DNA from: Tissierellia bacterium
Lineage (GTDB): Bacteria > Bacillota_A > Clostridia > Tissierellales > Peptoniphilaceae
NCBI GenBank assembly: GCA_012513395.1
Contig: JAAZCH010000059.1
Span: 1-10,171 of the forward strand
Reading direction: 5' to 3'
Length of the DNA stretch: 10,171 nt
Below the pieces are notes generated by a model. That model was not told the origin of the DNA, ran no database searches, and saw only the letters and a list, made by a program, of their open reading frames with translations. A program made the translations under genes and the position numbers. This document shows, in pieces, positions 850 through 8,281 of the stretch; the first letter of the stretch is position 1; every line of letters starts with the position of its first letter.

Positions 850-1953
850 CTACGCTTTTGCAATTTCTAAAAGCAATTTTGTCATATCATGAAGAGCACT
901 TATTGGTATAAACTCCTCTGTGGTGTGCGCGTTTTTATAACCGACCCCAATATTTACGGATGGGATTCCATTTTGGTTGAAATTATTGGCATCTGAGCCG
1001 CCGCCACTTTTTCCTGGCACAAATTCCAACCCCGCTCTTTCACAAGCAGCTTTAACTGCTTGAGCTGGGATTGAGTCTTCTGTAACTCTAAATGCTTTAT
1101 ATGCTTCTTCTACTTCTATTTCTGCTTCTATGCCGTATTTAGCTTGGGCATCTTTTACACATTGGACCATGTGATCTGTTTGTGCTTTTAATTTATCGTT
1201 ATCTAAACTTCTAGCTTCTGCCTTTATTTCTACTTCGTCTGTTACGATATTAGTAGGTCCGCCTCCACCTATGAATCCGATATTGGCAGTAGTTTCTTCG
1301 TCGATTCGAAGTAATTTCATATTGCTAATTGCTTCTGCTGCGATTTGGATTGCTGAAATTCCTGCTTCTGGCGCTACTCCTGCGTGGGCAGTTTTTCCTT
1401 TAAATTTTACGTTAATTTTGTTTTGGGCAGGTGCTTCTAAAATCGTATATCCAGGAGCTGAACTACTGTCTACAATAATTCCAAAATCTGCTTCAAACAT
1501 AGAATAATCTAAGTTTTTAGAACCGAATAATCCTCCTTCTTCATAAATATTAAAAGAAATTTCTAAATTGTGATGGGAAATGTTTTCTTCTTTTAATATC
1601 GTTAGCATTTCAATTATGGATGCCACTCCCGCCTTGTCGTCGGCGCCTAATACCGTAGTTCCGTCTGAATAAATTATTCCGTCGCGGATTTCTGGTTTAA
1701 TTCCCCTACCTGGAGAAACCGTATCCATATGAGCACTGAAGAGAATTGTTTGATTACCGTCTCCTTTTAACTTTCCTATTAAATTTCCTGAATTAGATCC
1801 TACTTTTTCCCCTGCATCATCTTCGTAAACTTCTAGCCCCAATTCTTCCAAATCTAATTTGAGCCTATCTTTAAATTCTTTTTCTTCTCTAGTTGGGCTA
1901 TCTATCTGAACGTACTCTAAAAATCTTTCTACAATTCTATCTTGTTTTTCCAT
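850..1953 (-). CDS. M20-family metallopeptidase, peptidase T-like (copy 1)
   Basis: This 367-residue cytosolic zinc hydrolase resembles the shorter peptidase-T-like proteins of the M20 family; classical PepT is about 40 residues longer. The two-metal site is complete: H75 and D77 (SAHMDT), D105 (GADDKAG), catalytic E138 with ligand E139 (YEEGG), D162 (VDS) and H343 (AHTTEE). H190 in KTAHAG lies in the dimerisation domain inserted between the two halves of the catalytic domain (about residues 178-290). It probably cleaves small peptides or amino-acid conjugates brought in by the AbgT-type carrier 38 nt upstream, with which it forms an operon. The start at 1953 is supported by GAAGGTG a few bases upstream. 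Residues 175-288 are identical to those of the second copy at 3936-5039, whereas the rest is about 78-79% identical. A PepT annotation would be tempting, but tripeptidase activity is not proven by sequence. Confidence 0.93.
   Translation of the reverse strand: MEKQDRIVERFLEYVQIDSPTREEKEFKDRLKLDLEELGLEVYEDDAGEKVGSNSGNLIGKLKGDGNQTILFSAHMDTVSPGRGIKPEIRDGIIYSDGTTVLGADDKAGVASIIEMLTILKEENISHHNLEISFNIYEEGGLFGSKNLDYSMFEADFGIIVDSSSAPGYTILEAPAQNKINVKFKGKTAHAGVAPEAGISAIQIAAEAISNMKLLRIDEETTANIGFIGGGGPTNIVTDEVEIKAEARSLDNDKLKAQTDHMVQCVKDAQAKYGIEAEIEVEEAYKAFRVTEDSIPAQAVKAACERAGLEFVPGKSGGGSDANNFNQNGIPSVNIGVGYKNAHTTEEFIPISALHDMTKLLLEIAKA
1090..1431 (-). repeat. Near-identical paralogous segment, copy A (peptidase residues 175-288)
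   Basis: This 342-nt stretch encodes exactly the same 114 residues as 4176-4517. By eye I count 11 nucleotide differences, all silent (about 97% identity). Identity falls sharply on both sides, where protein identity is 78-79%. It covers approximately the M20 dimerisation domain and looks like a gene-conversion tract. Confidence 0.85.
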
Positions 1954-1991
1954 TACACACCTTCTTTAAATTTTAATAGATCGCATATTGA

Positions 1992-3533
1992 TTATATATA
2001 AAGTGGAGAATCTGGTCCCAAAGGAAATCCTAATAGCATCCAAATTATTAAAAATATGGTCCATCCAATTAAAAATACTATTGAATATGGCATCATAGTA
2101 GAAATCAAAGTACCTAATCCTCGATCTTTGTCATATTTTTGCATAAATACTACAATCATGGCGAAATAACTCATCAATGGACTGATTATATTAGTGGTAG
2201 AGTCTCCTATTCTATAAGCGACTTGAGTAAGTGCTGGATGAATGTTCAGCCCCATCATCATCGGTACAAATATAGGAGCCATAATCGCCCACTTCGCAGA
2301 TGCAGAACCCATAAATAAATTAATAAACGCACTTAGTAAGATGAATAAAACTATTAATGGGATACCAGTCATGCCAATACTCTTTAAGAATTCAGCACCT
2401 TTTACAGAAATTATTATACCAATATTTGTATAACTGAAATATGAAACAAATTGTGCTGCGAAAAATGAAAGAACTAAATATCCACCCATTCCTTGCATTG
2501 CTTTTGTCATAGCAGCTACTAAGTCATTAGAGTTTTTAATAGTCCCAACAGCTTTTCCAAATGCTAACCCTGGAATCAAAAATAATAACAAAATTGCAAA
2601 CATTAAGCCGTTACTTAAAAAATTACTCAATACTAACTTCCCCTCTGCATTTGGTTGCTTAAACACAGCATTTGGCGCAAACATTAGATATCCCATAACT
2701 ACAATGAAAATTAGAAGTGAAATACCAGCGTTTCTTAATCCTCTATTTTCTGCTTCGGTTATAGGTCTTTCTTCGTGAACATATTCTCCAGAATATTGTC
2801 CTAAATTTGGCTCAATTATTCTTTCTGTCACTATTACGCCTAGAATCATTAATAAAAAAGTTGATGCTGCCATAAAAAAATAGTTTGATGTTACTTGTAT
2901 TTGCAAATCATAATTTGCAGCCGTCAATGCTTCGTTAGTCAAACCTGCGAGTAAAGTATCTGTAGTACCTAAAGCTAAGTTTGCGCTAAATCCTCCTGAA
3001 ACACCTGCAAAAGCTGCTGCTAAACCTGCAACGGGATGCCTTCCAACACTTGCAAAAATCATAGCACCCAGAGGAATTACTACAACATATCCTGCATTTG
3101 AAGCAATATTACTCATAACCCCTGCAAAAATGACAGTAGCTGTCAACAACCTAGGACTCACTCCTACTAATAATTTCTTCAAACCTACATCGAATAATCC
3201 AGAGTATTCTGATACCCCTACACCTAACATCGCTACTAAAACAGTTCCTAAAGGTGCAAACCCAGTGAAATTTTTAGTGGCTGAATTGAAGATGTACCTA
3301 ATTCCCTCTGGGTTCAATAGCGATATTGCCCCAAGTTGAACTTGTTCTGCTTTATTGGCATCATAATAATCAACTGTAATTCCCGCCCTCGACACGATTT
3401 CTGCACTTATTGCTAAAATTACAATCATAATTACAAAAATCATAGCCGGATGAGGTAAGGCATTTCCCACTTTTTCTACGGTTAATAAAAATCCGCCTAC
3501 TTCATTTTTGTCTCGTACTTTCTTATTGTTCAT
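1992..3533 (-). CDS. AbgT-family transporter (copy 1)
   Basis: This 513-residue polytopic inner-membrane protein belongs to the AbgT family (E. coli AbgT, gonococcal MtrF), whose known members import p-aminobenzoyl-glutamate or export sulfonamides. Family signatures are GRHPVAGLAAAFAGVSGGF at about 164-182, GSASAKWAIMAPIFVP at 409-424 with W415, and GDSTTNIISPLMSY at 443-456 with D444. The length matches the family (about 510). Two positions differ from copy 2 and, as I recall the family, from its usual consensus: N146 in SNIASNAGYV, where copy 2 has D, and T193 in TDTLL, where copy 2 has DPLL. D192 just before it is kept. The start at 3533 follows AAAGGAGGAGAGT, a strong ribosome binding site. 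It is first in an operon with peptidase 1. The substrate is probably a peptide or acylated amino acid, inferred only from the neighbour. Confidence 0.93.
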   Translation of the reverse strand: MNNKKVRDKNEVGGFLLTVEKVGNALPHPAMIFVIMIVILAISAEIVSRAGITVDYYDANKAEQVQLGAISLLNPEGIRYIFNSATKNFTGFAPLGTVLVAMLGVGVSEYSGLFDVGLKKLLVGVSPRLLTATVIFAGVMSNIASNAGYVVVIPLGAMIFASVGRHPVAGLAAAFAGVSGGFSANLALGTTDTLLAGLTNEALTAANYDLQIQVTSNYFFMAASTFLLMILGVIVTERIIEPNLGQYSGEYVHEERPITEAENRGLRNAGISLLIFIVVMGYLMFAPNAVFKQPNAEGKLVLSNFLSNGLMFAILLLFLIPGLAFGKAVGTIKNSNDLVAAMTKAMQGMGGYLVLSFFAAQFVSYFSYTNIGIIISVKGAEFLKSIGMTGIPLIVLFILLSAFINLFMGSASAKWAIMAPIFVPMMMGLNIHPALTQVAYRIGDSTTNIISPLMSYFAMIVVFMQKYDKDRGLGTLISTMMPYSIVFLIGWTIFLIIWMLLGFPLGPDSPLYI

Positions 3534-3591
3534 ACTCTCCTCCTTTAAAGGTCAAATTAATATTTGGCGCAATGAACTTTACACCGTATTG

Positions 3592-3617
3592 TATCGAGAA
3601 AAACGATTTCATCGATA
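3592..3617 (-). promoter_or_regulatory. Leader hairpin upstream of transporter 1
   Basis: TATCGA (3592-3597) pairs with TCGATA (3612-3617), and inside it GAAA pairs with TTTC across one bulged base, giving a 10-bp stem around the loop AACGA. It lies 59 nt upstream of the transporter 1 start. A possible -10 (TATATT, minus strand 3628-3623) would place the transcript start at about the edge of the hairpin, so it may be a 5' stabilising stem or a protein-binding site. No good -35 accompanies that -10. Confidence 0.45.
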
Positions 3618-3636
3618 AAAATAATATACCAAAACA

Positions 3637-3650
3637 TTTTATTAATAAAA
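3637..3650. promoter_or_regulatory. Perfect 14-bp palindrome upstream of transporter 1 (possible operator)
   Basis: TTTTATTAATAAAA is its own reverse complement. It lies just upstream of the candidate -10 at 3623-3628 of the transporter 1 operon, where a repressor or activator could bind. Because it is entirely A and T in AT-rich DNA, chance is a real alternative. A second -10-like box (TATAAG, minus strand 3665-3660, with TTAAAC 17 nt upstream) lies on its other side. Confidence 0.3.
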
Positions 3651-3862
3651 CATAATTATCTTATAGCGATTTTTTGCCATTTGTTTAACGCTGCAAATAT
3701 TTTCTAATCTCAATTATTTATTTTGCATTTTTAATTTAAATTAATAAATAAATAAATAAAAATATTTAATACATATTTATGATATTTTAAAATGTAAATT
3801 TTATATTAACAATAAAAGTAGTTGAATTAACAATATCCTAGAGTGAATTATTATTTAATCAC
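3651..3862. other. AT-rich intergenic DNA between the two modules, no gene seen
   Basis: I see no ribosome binding site with a plausible reading frame here on either strand. It contains four tandem TAAA units at 3745-3760 and is otherwise very AT-rich. It probably holds the upstream promoter elements of the transporter 1 operon and the tail of the preceding operon. Confidence 0.5.
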
Positions 3863-3896
3863 AATTTAAAATCGCATCATGAATCGATGCGATTTT
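3863..3896 (-). terminator. Terminator of the transporter 2-peptidase 2 operon
   Basis: AAAATCGCATC (3868-3878) and GATGCGATTTT (3886-3896) pair perfectly over 11 bp around a 7-nt loop. On the minus strand the stem ends in TTTT followed by AAATT, a modest U tract. It sits 39 nt past the peptidase 2 stop, separating the two modules into independently transcribed units, although some read-through is possible because the U tract is weak. Confidence 0.75.
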
Positions 3897-3935
3897 AATC
3901 TTTGTATTAATGTGTTATCTTTTTAAAAATTTTGT

Positions 3936-5039
3936 CTAAGCTTTTGCAATTTCTAAAAGCAATTTTGTCACTTCGTGAATTGCGTTTATTGGGATATATT
4001 CTTCTGTGGTGTGAACTTTTTCGTAGCCTACTCCTATGTTAACGGATGGGATTCCATTTAGGTTGAAGTTGTTTGTATCTGATCCGCCGCCACTTTTTCC
4101 CATTATGAATTCTAGTCCTGCTTTTTCACAAGCTGCTTTAACTGCTTGTACAGGTAAGAAATCTTCTGTTACTGAAAATGCTTTATATGCTTCTTCTACT
4201 TCTATTTCTGCTTCTATGCCGTATTTAGCTTGGGCATCTTTTACACATTGTACCATGTGATCTGTTTGTGCTTTCAATTTATCGTTATCCAAACTTCTAG
4301 CTTCTGCTTTTATTTCTACTTCGTCTGTTACAATATTAGTAGGTCCGCCTCCACCAATGAATCCGATATTTGCAGTAGTTTCTTCGTCGATTCGAAGTAA
4401 TTTCATATTGCTAATTGCTTCTGCTGCGATTTGGATCGCTGAGATTCCTGCTTCTGGCGCTACTCCTGCATGGGCAGTTTTTCCTTTGAATTTTACGTTA
4501 ATTTTGTTTTGGGCAGGTCCTGCTATAACTGTATATCCAGGTGCTGATCCGCTATCTACCACTATTCCAAAGTCTGCATTCAGTTTAGAATAATCTAGGT
4601 ATTTCGAACCGAATAGTCCGCCTTCTTCGTAGATGGTAAATGCCACTTCAATATTGTGATGAGGAATTTCTTCTTCTATCAATACATTAAGCATTTCTAC
4701 GATAGCCGCTACTCCTGCTTTGTCATCAGAACCTAAAACTGTAGTTCCGTCTGAGTAAATTATTCCGTCTCGAATTTCTGGTTTAATTCCTCTACCTGGA
4801 GAAACTGTATCCATATGAGAGCTAAATAAAATGGTTTTATCTCCTGTGCCTTTTAGTTTAGCGATTAGATTTCCCGAGTTAGATCCTGCCTTTTCCCCTG
4901 CGTCATCTTCATATACTTCTACGCCTAGCTCTTTTAAATCTGACATTAGCCTGTCTTTAAAATCTTTTTCTTCTGTAGTCGGGCTATCTATTTGAACGTA
5001 CTCCAAAAATCTTTCTATTACTCTATCTTGTTTTTCCAT
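3936..5039 (-). CDS. M20-family metallopeptidase, peptidase T-like (copy 2)
   Basis: This is a 367-residue paralogue of the peptidase at 850-1953, equal in length and alignable without gaps. All metal and catalytic residues are present: H75, D77, D105, E138, E139, D162, H343, plus H190 in the dimerisation domain. Most differences from copy 1 are conservative. Those nearest the active site are A74S and A104S beside metal ligands, S164G two residues after D162, and changes at 339-341 just before H343. These could tune specificity. The start at 5039 follows AAGGAGG at good spacing, a stronger ribosome binding site than that of copy 1. It lies 102 nt after transporter 2, with an intervening hairpin, and is probably co-transcribed with it. 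It is presumed to hydrolyse the transporter's substrate in the cytosol; the exact substrate is unknown. Confidence 0.93.
   Translation of the reverse strand: MEKQDRVIERFLEYVQIDSPTTEEKDFKDRLMSDLKELGVEVYEDDAGEKAGSNSGNLIAKLKGTGDKTILFSSHMDTVSPGRGIKPEIRDGIIYSDGTTVLGSDDKAGVAAIVEMLNVLIEEEIPHHNIEVAFTIYEEGGLFGSKYLDYSKLNADFGIVVDSGSAPGYTVIAGPAQNKINVKFKGKTAHAGVAPEAGISAIQIAAEAISNMKLLRIDEETTANIGFIGGGGPTNIVTDEVEIKAEARSLDNDKLKAQTDHMVQCVKDAQAKYGIEAEIEVEEAYKAFSVTEDFLPVQAVKAACEKAGLEFIMGKSGGGSDTNNFNLNGIPSVNIGVGYEKVHTTEEYIPINAIHEVTKLLLEIAKA
4176..4517 (-). repeat. Near-identical paralogous segment, copy B (peptidase residues 175-288)
   Basis: This is the partner of the segment at 1090-1431, with 114 identical residues and 11 silent base differences by my count. 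A second, much shorter identity tract of 31 nt lies at the extreme 3' end of the two genes (854-884 and 3940-3970), encoding the last ten residues. Confidence 0.85.
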
Positions 5040-5110
5040 ATATCCTCCTTGTAACTCTTAGTATTCTATTTTTAACCTATTTTACTTGATTCAATCTACA
5101 TAAAGTACAT

Positions 5111-5132
5111 CGCCGAAAGAAATCCTTCGGCG
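5111..5132 (-). other. GC-rich hairpin between transporter 2 and peptidase 2
   Basis: CGCCGAA (5111-5117) pairs with TTCGGCG (5126-5132) around an 8-nt loop, in an otherwise AT-rich 102-nt gap. On the minus strand no U run follows, so it is unlikely to be an efficient terminator. It could be an RNA processing or stabilising element that sets the ratio of transporter to peptidase. The equivalent gap in the other module is 38 nt and has no such hairpin. Confidence 0.6.
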
Positions 5133-5141
5133 AAGTTAGTT

Positions 5142-6680
5142 TTAAATATATAATGTTGCTCCTGGTCCTAGTGGTAATCCTATGAACATCCAAAGGATTA
5201 ATAATAGTGTCCAGCTTACTAAAAATGCCATAGAATAAGGAACCATTGTGGAAATTAATGTTCCTAGTCCTTTTTCTTTGTCATAACGTTGCATAAATAC
5301 TACTATCATAGCGAAGTAACTCATAAGTGGACTGATAATATTAGTCGTAGAGTCACCTATACGGTATGCAACTTGTGTAAGTGCTGGGCTGATTCCCATG
5401 TGATACATCATCGGTACAAAGATTGGAGCCATGATTGCCCATTTTGCAGATGCTGAACCCATAAACAAGTTGATAAACGCACAAAGTAGTATAAATACTC
5501 CAATTAGTGGTATTCCTGTAAGTCCTATAGCTTCTAAGAATTCCGCTCCTTTAACTGAAAGAATAATTCCCAAGTTAGTGTGAGAGAAATAAGCTACAAA
5601 CTGAGATGCAAAGAATGCCAAAACTAGATAAGAACCCATACTTTGCATAGATTTTGTCATAGTAGCAACAAGGTCATTTGAATCCTTTATTACGCCTATA
5701 GTTTTACCATATGCATATCCTGGAATGAAGAATGCAAGGAACATAGCAAATATCAAACCATTACTTATAAAGCCTGTAATTACTAAATCTCCCTCAGCAT
5801 TTGGTGCTTTAAGTGGAGCATTCGGTAAGAACATAGCTAGAGACATGATTATTATGAAAATTAATAATGCTCTACCTGCATTTTTAAGACCTCTATTTTC
5901 TAATTCTGTAATAGGTGCATCTTCGTGAACGTAATCACCGTGATAAGGTCCTAAGTTAGGAATTACAATTTTGTTTGTAACCAAAGTACCTACTGCTACT
6001 ATTACAAATGTAGATACAATCATAAAATACCAGTTTGCAGTTGGGTCTATAGCCGCATCTACTATACCAGCAGCATTTAGAGCTTCATTGGTAATACCTT
6101 GAAGTAATGGGTCTAGCGTTCCTAGTAATAGGTTCGCGCTGAATCCTCCTGATACTCCTGCAAAAGCTGCAGCAAGTCCTGCTACTGGATGTCTTCCCAT
6201 GCTGGCGAATATCAATGCACCTAGGGGAATTACTACAACATATCCCGCGTCAGATGCAATATTACTCATAATTCCCGCAAATATAATTGTAGGTGTTACG
6301 ATTCCCATTGGAACTCCAGATAATAGCTTTCTCAAACTTGTGTTGAATAATCCCGTGTACTCAGCTACTCCTACTCCAAGCATAGCTACCAAAACTGTTC
6401 CAAGTGGTGCAAATCCGGTGAAGTTCTTCGTCGCAGAATTGAAAACATATCTCAATCCCTCTGCATTTAATAAGGAAACCGCTCCAAGTTGAATCTGTTC
6501 AGAAGCTCTAGCGTCGTAGTAGTCTACAGTAATCCCTGCACGGCTAATTATTTCAGCTATTACAACTAGCACGACAGATAAAATAACAAATATTATTGCT
6601 GGGTGAGGCAAAGCATTTCCTACACGCTCAATGGTCTGTAGTACGCCGCCAATTTCCTTCTCATTTCTTTCTTTTTTCAT
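5142..6680 (-). CDS. AbgT-family transporter (copy 2)
   Basis: This 512-residue membrane protein is roughly three-quarters identical to the transporter at 1992-3533 along its whole length. It shares all AbgT signatures: GRHPVAGLAAAFAGVSGGF at about 162-180, GSASAKWAIMAPIFVP at 408-423 with W414, and GDSTTNIISPLMSY at 442-455 with D443. It keeps D144 in SNIASDAGYV and the GTLDPLL sequence with D190, the form I regard as usual for the family. The most divergent parts are the N-terminal tail and the segment around 200-240. AAAGGAGGAGAGT before the ATG at 6680 is a strong ribosome binding site shared with copy 1. It heads an operon with peptidase 2 and has a recognisable promoter at 6754-6782. 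AbgT carriers are thought to be driven by ion gradients; whether this one imports or exports cannot be told from sequence. Confidence 0.93.
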   Translation of the reverse strand: MKKERNEKEIGGVLQTIERVGNALPHPAIIFVILSVVLVVIAEIISRAGITVDYYDARASEQIQLGAVSLLNAEGLRYVFNSATKNFTGFAPLGTVLVAMLGVGVAEYTGLFNTSLRKLLSGVPMGIVTPTIIFAGIMSNIASDAGYVVVIPLGALIFASMGRHPVAGLAAAFAGVSGGFSANLLLGTLDPLLQGITNEALNAAGIVDAAIDPTANWYFMIVSTFVIVAVGTLVTNKIVIPNLGPYHGDYVHEDAPITELENRGLKNAGRALLIFIIIMSLAMFLPNAPLKAPNAEGDLVITGFISNGLIFAMFLAFFIPGYAYGKTIGVIKDSNDLVATMTKSMQSMGSYLVLAFFASQFVAYFSHTNLGIILSVKGAEFLEAIGLTGIPLIGVFILLCAFINLFMGSASAKWAIMAPIFVPMMYHMGISPALTQVAYRIGDSTTNIISPLMSYFAMIVVFMQRYDKEKGLGTLISTMVPYSMAFLVSWTLLLILWMFIGLPLGPGATLYI

Positions 6681-7819: not shown

Positions 7820-7840
7820 TTCTCAAAGGAGAAGATGCAT

Positions 7841-8281
7841 ATGGAGATCATGATGGAGATGAGAAGGATAGAGTATGGCTCCCAAGACTACGAAACTACT
7901 CTAGACTTACGCAATGAAATCTTTAGAAAGACACAAGGTCTCAATCTTAGAGACGAAGATCTTTCTAGAGAAGCCCTCTGTGATATGTTCGCTGGATTCA
8001 TAGGAGATAAGATTATCGCAACAATATTCCTAGCTAAAATTGACGAAGAAATGGCTAGAATAAAAGCTGTTATGATTTTAGAAGAGTATCGCGGCACTGG
8101 CCTTGGAAAATTTATTATGAATTATGCCGAAAACGCAGCTAGAAACCAAGGCTACAAATACATTAAACTTTTATCTAGAATGAGCGCAGAAACTTTTTAC
8201 GAAAAGTTAGGATACAAAAGAGTTAGCGAACCCGTGGATTACTACCAAGTGGCTCATGTCAGTATGATAAAAGAGTTGTAA
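7841..8281 (+). CDS. GNAT-family N-acetyltransferase
   Basis: From the ATG at 7841 this is a 146-residue GNAT protein. The acetyl-CoA binding motif A is RGTGLGK at 84-90 (R/QxxGxG/A pattern), preceded by the beta-strand MARIKAVMILEEY. Motif B, AETFYEKLGYKRVSE, is at 116-130. The substrate is unknown, since GNATs acetylate amines on small molecules, peptides or proteins. The start is uncertain because five in-frame ATGs cluster at 7835-7859. GGAG at 7828-7831 is 9 nt from 7841 but only 3 nt from 7835, which favours 7841. The gene lies 21 nt after deoC in the same direction and is closed by the hairpin at 8300-8330, suggesting a bicistronic operon. The functional link to deoC may be only positional. 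Confidence 0.9.
   Translation: MEIMMEMRRIEYGSQDYETTLDLRNEIFRKTQGLNLRDEDLSREALCDMFAGFIGDKIIATIFLAKIDEEMARIKAVMILEEYRGTGLGKFIMNYAENAARNQGYKYIKLLSRMSAETFYEKLGYKRVSEPVDYYQVAHVSMIKEL

Follow-up and report, generated by a model that had tools for sequence, protein, structure and literature searches.

Evidence for Gene Conversion Confined to the Lid Domain of Tandem PepT-Like M20 Peptidases in a Tissierellia Bacterium

A homogenized block in two diverged peptidase genes

Contig JAAZCH010000059.1 of a Tissierellia bacterium (GenBank assembly GCA_012513395.1; 10,171 nt, analyzed whole and referred to here as the window) carries two tandem genes for PepT-like M20 peptidases, which we call peptidases A and B, each of 367 codons on the minus strand. 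Homologous recombination very probably copied about 340 bp, codons 175 to 288, between these diverged genes, most likely from B into A. The genes and the shared block are located as follows:

850-1953, minus strand: peptidase copy A, PepT-like M20, 367 amino acids (TIGR01883, 387.3 bits; PF07687 at residues 180-273), the looser copy and the likely recipient
1090-1431, minus strand: homogenized block in copy A, codons 175-288 (lid/dimerization domain), with 0 amino acid and 11 silent differences from B, delimited by a scan of silent sites only
3936-5039, minus strand: peptidase copy B, 367 amino acids (TIGR01883, 396.2 bits; 92% identity to the relative P0001), the slower copy and the likely donor
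4176-4517, minus strand: homogenized block in copy B, codons 175-288, from the comparison with A and the silent-only scan

Within codons 175 to 288, none of the 114 residues differs between the copies, and all 11 base differences are silent. Outside the block, the catalytic halves stay diverged, with amino acid differences at 36 of 174 positions in residues 1 to 174 and at 17 of 79 in residues 289 to 367. An original prediction, made from the sequence alone, had given the same counts and the same block coordinates, and our recount agrees with them; the minus-strand orientation of both genes did not form part of that prediction. The homogenization extends to silent sites: synonymous divergence (dS, NG86 estimate) is only 0.17 within the block, compared with 1.17 in the preceding flank and 1.11 in the following one. 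When silent differences were counted on degenerate codons encoding the same residue in both copies, 11 of 112 codons differed in the block, compared with 77 of 197 in the flanks (53 of 135 before and 24 of 62 after the block; Fisher p=1.1e-8). The neighboring transporter genes provide a comparison that the original prediction had cited and that we confirmed, a 77-nt stretch with identical protein and 12 differences.

A scan based on silent sites only placed the best low-divergence segment at exactly codons 175 to 288, and its score of 16.8 was reached by none of 300 shuffles (maximum, 10.9). The breakpoints had been described as sharp, which holds for the amino acid differences that adjoin the edges (at 171 to 174 and at 289) but not for the silent sites, as segments scoring within 2 units of the best start anywhere from codon 165 to 180 and end from 283 to 305. 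Two further elements of the original prediction did not stand. Calling the conversion recent overstates the case, with 11 of 112 informative block codons already silently different. A 31-nt identity run near the 3' end (gene nucleotides 1070 to 1100) exists as described, but as a second small conversion it was rejected: shuffling the flank codons produces a run of at least 9 identical codons 16% of the time, within chance (P=0.16).

Conversion versus constraint

Similarity of this kind could also arise with no conversion, if strong purifying selection that includes synonymous sites kept the block alike, a possibility that we regard as very improbable. Among relatives, the protein sequence of the block is somewhat better conserved than that of the flanks: the 88 rows of relatives form 3828 pairs, and the median block/flank divergence ratio is 0.82 in 3826 of them (the two remaining pairs had no flank difference). 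However, its silent sites evolve about as fast as those of the flanks in relatives. Across 30 relatives' loci compared with B as the reference (28 from separate genomes and two from G697), the silent fraction of the block was like that of the flanks, and a single comparison reached p<0.05 (L032; block, 0.43; flanks, 0.58 and 0.57). The lowest block silent fraction among the 30 was 0.43, compared with 0.10 between A and B. The protein ratio points the same way: in the 789 pairs with flank divergence of 0.1 to 0.3, which share sequences and in part come from the same organism and so give a range rather than independent trials, the ratio has a median of 0.87 and a minimum of 0.48, whereas it is 0 for A and B.

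Synonymous or protein constraint as the cause is thus ruled out by the relatives' loci and pairs, and conversion rather than constraint explains the block because its silent sites are not unusually conserved in the 30 relatives. Neither of the two refuting conditions set by the original prediction holds: silent divergence is lower in the block than in the flanks, and the block is not equally frozen across related genomes. The earlier view that purifying selection alone is unlikely is borne out. Together, the low silent divergence, the unconstrained silent sites of relatives, and the breakpoints recovered at the same codons from silent sites alone support sharing of the block by conversion confined to one segment.

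Direction and age of the conversion

A near relative, P0001, suggests which copy was overwritten. In residues 1 to 174 it sides with B, with 10 differences from B and 35 from A; P0001 represents a cluster of 21 sequences, and the comparison is with this representative. At the protein level, B and P0001 are closer to each other than A and B are in residues 1 to 174 (10 versus 36 differences), while in the block A and B differ at 0 of 114 residues and B and P0001 at 6 of 114. Over both flanks, P0001 differs from B at 23 of 253 residues and from A at 51 of 253, so that the block/flank ratio would be 0.58 for a block of B origin and 0.26 for one of A origin. The second value lies below the minimum of all 789 comparison pairs, so from these protein sequences B was probably the donor and A the recipient. 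Peptidase A is also the looser copy, as it deviates at 16 of the positions at least 75% conserved in the 88 rows and B at 9. Residues 289 to 367 are almost equally distant, with P0001 differing from B at 13 of 79 and from A at 16 of 79; B or P0001 may have undergone its own small exchange there. Of the 17 residues that distinguish A and B in this segment, P0001 has the residue of A at 6 and that of B at 9, in contrast to residues 1 to 174, where it sides mostly with B.

A rough age comes from genomes G720 to G722, the nearest by peptidase, which were searched within one order together with G002 to G004. Silent divergence between G720 and G721 (59 of 220 in the flanks, 31 of 99 in the block) exceeds that between the A and B blocks, so the conversion would be younger than the G720-G721 split if silent rates are alike, although the block is not an unaltered recent copy.

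We therefore favor a history in which the peptidases would first have diverged to about 79% protein identity and a silent dS of about 1.1. Homologous recombination would then have replaced the whole lid/dimerization domain and left both catalytic segments diverged. The 11 silent and 0 amino acid changes gathered in the block afterward would be as expected for a conserved domain under ordinary purifying selection.

Several points weigh against this history. The 11 silent sites are unpolarized, and what we presume to be a single event may be several overlapping ones. No close relative's DNA was found among viral contigs, and the closest peptidase in whole-genome searches was 77% identical (G722). 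The listing for copy A (P0002) comes from a single contig, and the direction rests on one cluster representative at the protein level. The same outside lid may even have been imported into both copies. The window being a contig of its length also brings up an assembly artifact of a tandem repeat, but this is hardly credible: the longest exact runs common to A and B are 75 and 65 nt, a collapse would have left no differences, and the 11 that exist are scattered. Sequencing or assembly error is unlikely because all 11 are silent.

Match to the lid domain and the question of mixed dimers

The converted block overlaps the M20 dimerization or lid domain, as had been predicted. In an AlphaFold model of copy A (mean predicted local distance difference test score [pLDDT], 94.1), the lid strands span residues 176 to 285, which the block covers with 1 to 3 residues to spare, and Pfam M20_dimer (PF07687) lies at 180 to 273. 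Placed at random, a block of 114 codons would take in the lid fold at 5 of 254 possible positions and the Pfam domain at 21 of 254. For one event, this placement is suggestive and not proof, and the actual limits of the tract could lie about ten codons to either side. A review reports lower conversion rates for paralogues near 80% identity and a dependence of these rates on runs of identical sequence (PMC3924818). Within the gene, the lid evolves more slowly than the rest, so it was probably the best homology available for recombination, and exchanges in the catalytic segments may have been disfavored after A and B diverged. For PepV, another M20 enzyme, the second domain is described as a lid that in some instances may promote dimerization (PMC12004944).

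The original prediction had offered a further reason for the placement, namely that conversion there is favored because a shared interface allows mixed dimers. In this reading, which parallels a proposal made for the receptors TLR1 and TLR6, the two peptidases would pair through a shared lid, and selection would retain lid conversions as the catalytic segments drift apart. We consider this unlikely. Still less likely is the fuller version, in which selected and perhaps recurrent lid conversion would yield mixed dimers of functionally diverged peptidases, with each lid serving the active site of its partner. The near-exact match of block and lid speaks for selection on a shared lid, as do the 0 amino acid changes against 11 silent ones since conversion and the retention in both copies of the residues that we take to be metal ligands or catalytic (H75, D77, D105, E138, E139, D162, and H343, which do not vary in an alignment of 26 sequences that contains A and B) and of lid H190, whose role we likewise presume. 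However, there is one event on one contig, and a slow-evolving lid makes 0 amino acid changes unremarkable. Clustering of A-B differences at the active site was also rejected: positions next to the presumed metal ligands hold no excess of them (6 of 28, compared with 53 of 253 flank positions overall).

Paralogue pairs elsewhere likewise lend no support to conversion favored for mixed dimers. Lid homogenization was seen in 0 of 5 other two-copy genomes, although these pairs are nontandem (on separate contigs or 3.5 Mb apart) and far more diverged. Two of the five reach Fisher p<0.05 in opposite directions, with more silent change in the block than in the flanks for L106/L107 (p=0.042) and less for L110/L111 (16 of 51 versus 56 of 105; p=0.011). 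The latter was rejected as a recent copy, as 61 of its 114 block residues differ. Two-copy genomes are rare. Of 249 genomes searched in the order, 43 had a match and 1 of these had two copies (E<=1e-100); of 391 in the class sample, 59 had a match and 4 had two copies (E<=1e-80). Scoring in both cases was limited to the top few candidates of each genome.

Locus layout and gene neighborhood

The four genes, all on the minus strand, form two tandem two-gene units, A (850-3533) and B (3936-6680), each an AbgT-family transporter gene followed by a peptidase gene. The remaining features are as follows:

1992-3533, minus strand: AbgT-family transporter copy A, 513 amino acids, upstream of peptidase A (PF03806, 616.6 bits)
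3866-3898, minus strand: terminator-like hairpin 3' of peptidase B, separating the two gene pairs (consensus scan only)
5110-5133, minus strand: stem-loop between transporter B and peptidase B (consensus scan only)
5142-6680, minus strand: AbgT-family transporter copy B, 512 amino acids, upstream of peptidase B (PF03806, 609.7 bits; relatives P0150-P0155)

Both peptidases match TIGR01883 above its curated cutoff of 274.25 bits over nearly their full length (residues 6 to 365), which assigns them by sequence to the PepT-like M20 family, and their closest solved sequences are 3gb0 and 3rza. Both transporters exceed the PF03806 gathering score of 27, and neither reaches the cutoff of 753.55 for the YdaH subfamily TIGR00819 (542.9 bits for A and 525.9 for B). 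Transporter B is 99.8%, 92 to 93%, and 84.5% identical to its relatives P0150 to P0155; P0151, at 93%, is labeled Tissierellia bacterium, as are loci L002 to L004 (genomes G002 to G004). These labels, together with the order that G002 to G004 share with G720 to G722, would place the window in a Tissierellales-like anaerobe. The consensus scan for terminator-like hairpins returned 5 sites, compared with a mean of 2.7 in shuffles, and no RNA family reached its gathering score. The transporter-peptidase gap of pair A is only 38 nt, with no hairpin in the scan; the stem-loop at 5110-5133, which has no listed counterpart in pair A, may serve in transcript processing or in attenuation.

The syntenic locus of G722 (L069) has one transporter-peptidase pair, followed by deoC, a gene that we take to be TraX-like, rpsD, and a presumed XRE regulator gene. 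As the same neighbors flank one pair there, the window has two pairs where G722 has one. Between deoC and the TraX-like gene, the window has an acetyltransferase-like open reading frame (7835-8281; presumably GNAT, judging from its look) that is unmatched in the G722 locus, which instead has a 433-amino-acid open reading frame directly upstream of deoC. Farther afield, locus L001 (genome KA00044, labeled Lachnospiraceae) carries a transporter-peptidase pair 69% and 72% identical to pair A, and no such peptidase was found at E<=1e-100 in the 199 other genomes searched from its family, a sample of a larger set. Horizontal transfer of this pair is possible on these sequence comparisons.

Transporters and a possible older homogenization of the peptidases

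The transporters may have a different history from the peptidases. Transporters A and B are identical at 368 of 511 residues (72%), with silent sites near saturation, and no sliding window along them has the low silent divergence expected of conversion (lowest defined dS, 1.04). Transporter A is nearer to P0156 to P0158 (76 to 77%) than to transporter B; no match above 77% identity appears among the 120 listed of 5610, which is uninformative, as copy A itself is unlisted too. The transporters look older than the peptidases.

These differences raise the possibility of layered concerted evolution, compatible with the lid conversion that we favor, in which the whole peptidase was homogenized after the transporters split and the lid was homogenized again later. 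We consider this a serious, if less than even, possibility. Outside the block, peptidases A and B group together at full support (100/99 with P0001 and 100/99 in a second tree). The best transporter trees, by contrast, do not recover A and B as sisters, and B is placed with P0156 (95/86). Path lengths agree, at 0.53 between the transporters compared with 0.36 from A to another lineage, and at 0.29 between the peptidase flanks compared with 0.57 from A to the next row. Silent divergence is higher in the transporters as well (193 of 346 versus 77 of 197 in the peptidase flanks; p=2.4e-4). The block by itself gave a tree with hardly any supported branches, which we set aside. Against layered evolution, the data are compatible with a clade of transporters A and B (p-AU, 0.074 and 0.27 in two analyses), other genome pairs also show more silent divergence in transporters than in peptidase flanks (for example, 0.47 versus 0.39 for G722-G720), and a horizontally acquired transporter in one of the pairs would look alike.

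Known systems and implications

Homogenization of one region in otherwise diverged paralogues is known from other systems. In mammals, TLR1 and TLR6 are tandem paralogues with one homogenized region, for which shared binding partners are invoked (PMC2077338); peptidases A and B resemble them in arrangement, but that study describes independent conversions of nearly the same region in nine species, and here there is one event on one contig. In Trypanosoma brucei, conversion replaced the GAF-A coding region of TbrPDEB2 by that of the upstream TbrPDEB1 (PMC2689650). These, too, are closely spaced, very similar enzyme genes with one converted domain, although the report concerns a eukaryote and one allele of one strain and its derivatives, whereas the peptidases are bacterial and have since gathered silent changes. 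Prokaryotic paralogues such as tufA/tufB show concerted evolution at silent and amino acid sites (PMC6053082), as the block does, except that peptidases A and B share only one homogenized domain. We found no report of the A/B case in the literature searched, which is no proof of its absence. The block adds a well-supported new case to a known phenomenon, as domain-sized and region-restricted conversion and prokaryotic concerted evolution are already known.

For this peptidase, trees or molecular clocks mix the histories of its segments. The pair offers a clean bacterial example of one conversion tract matching one structural domain, and mixed dimers, if they do form, would make it a bacterial enzyme counterpart of TLR1/TLR6. 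If related tandem pairs had the same tract, they would provide a testable case of conversion preserving a shared interface while active sites diverge.
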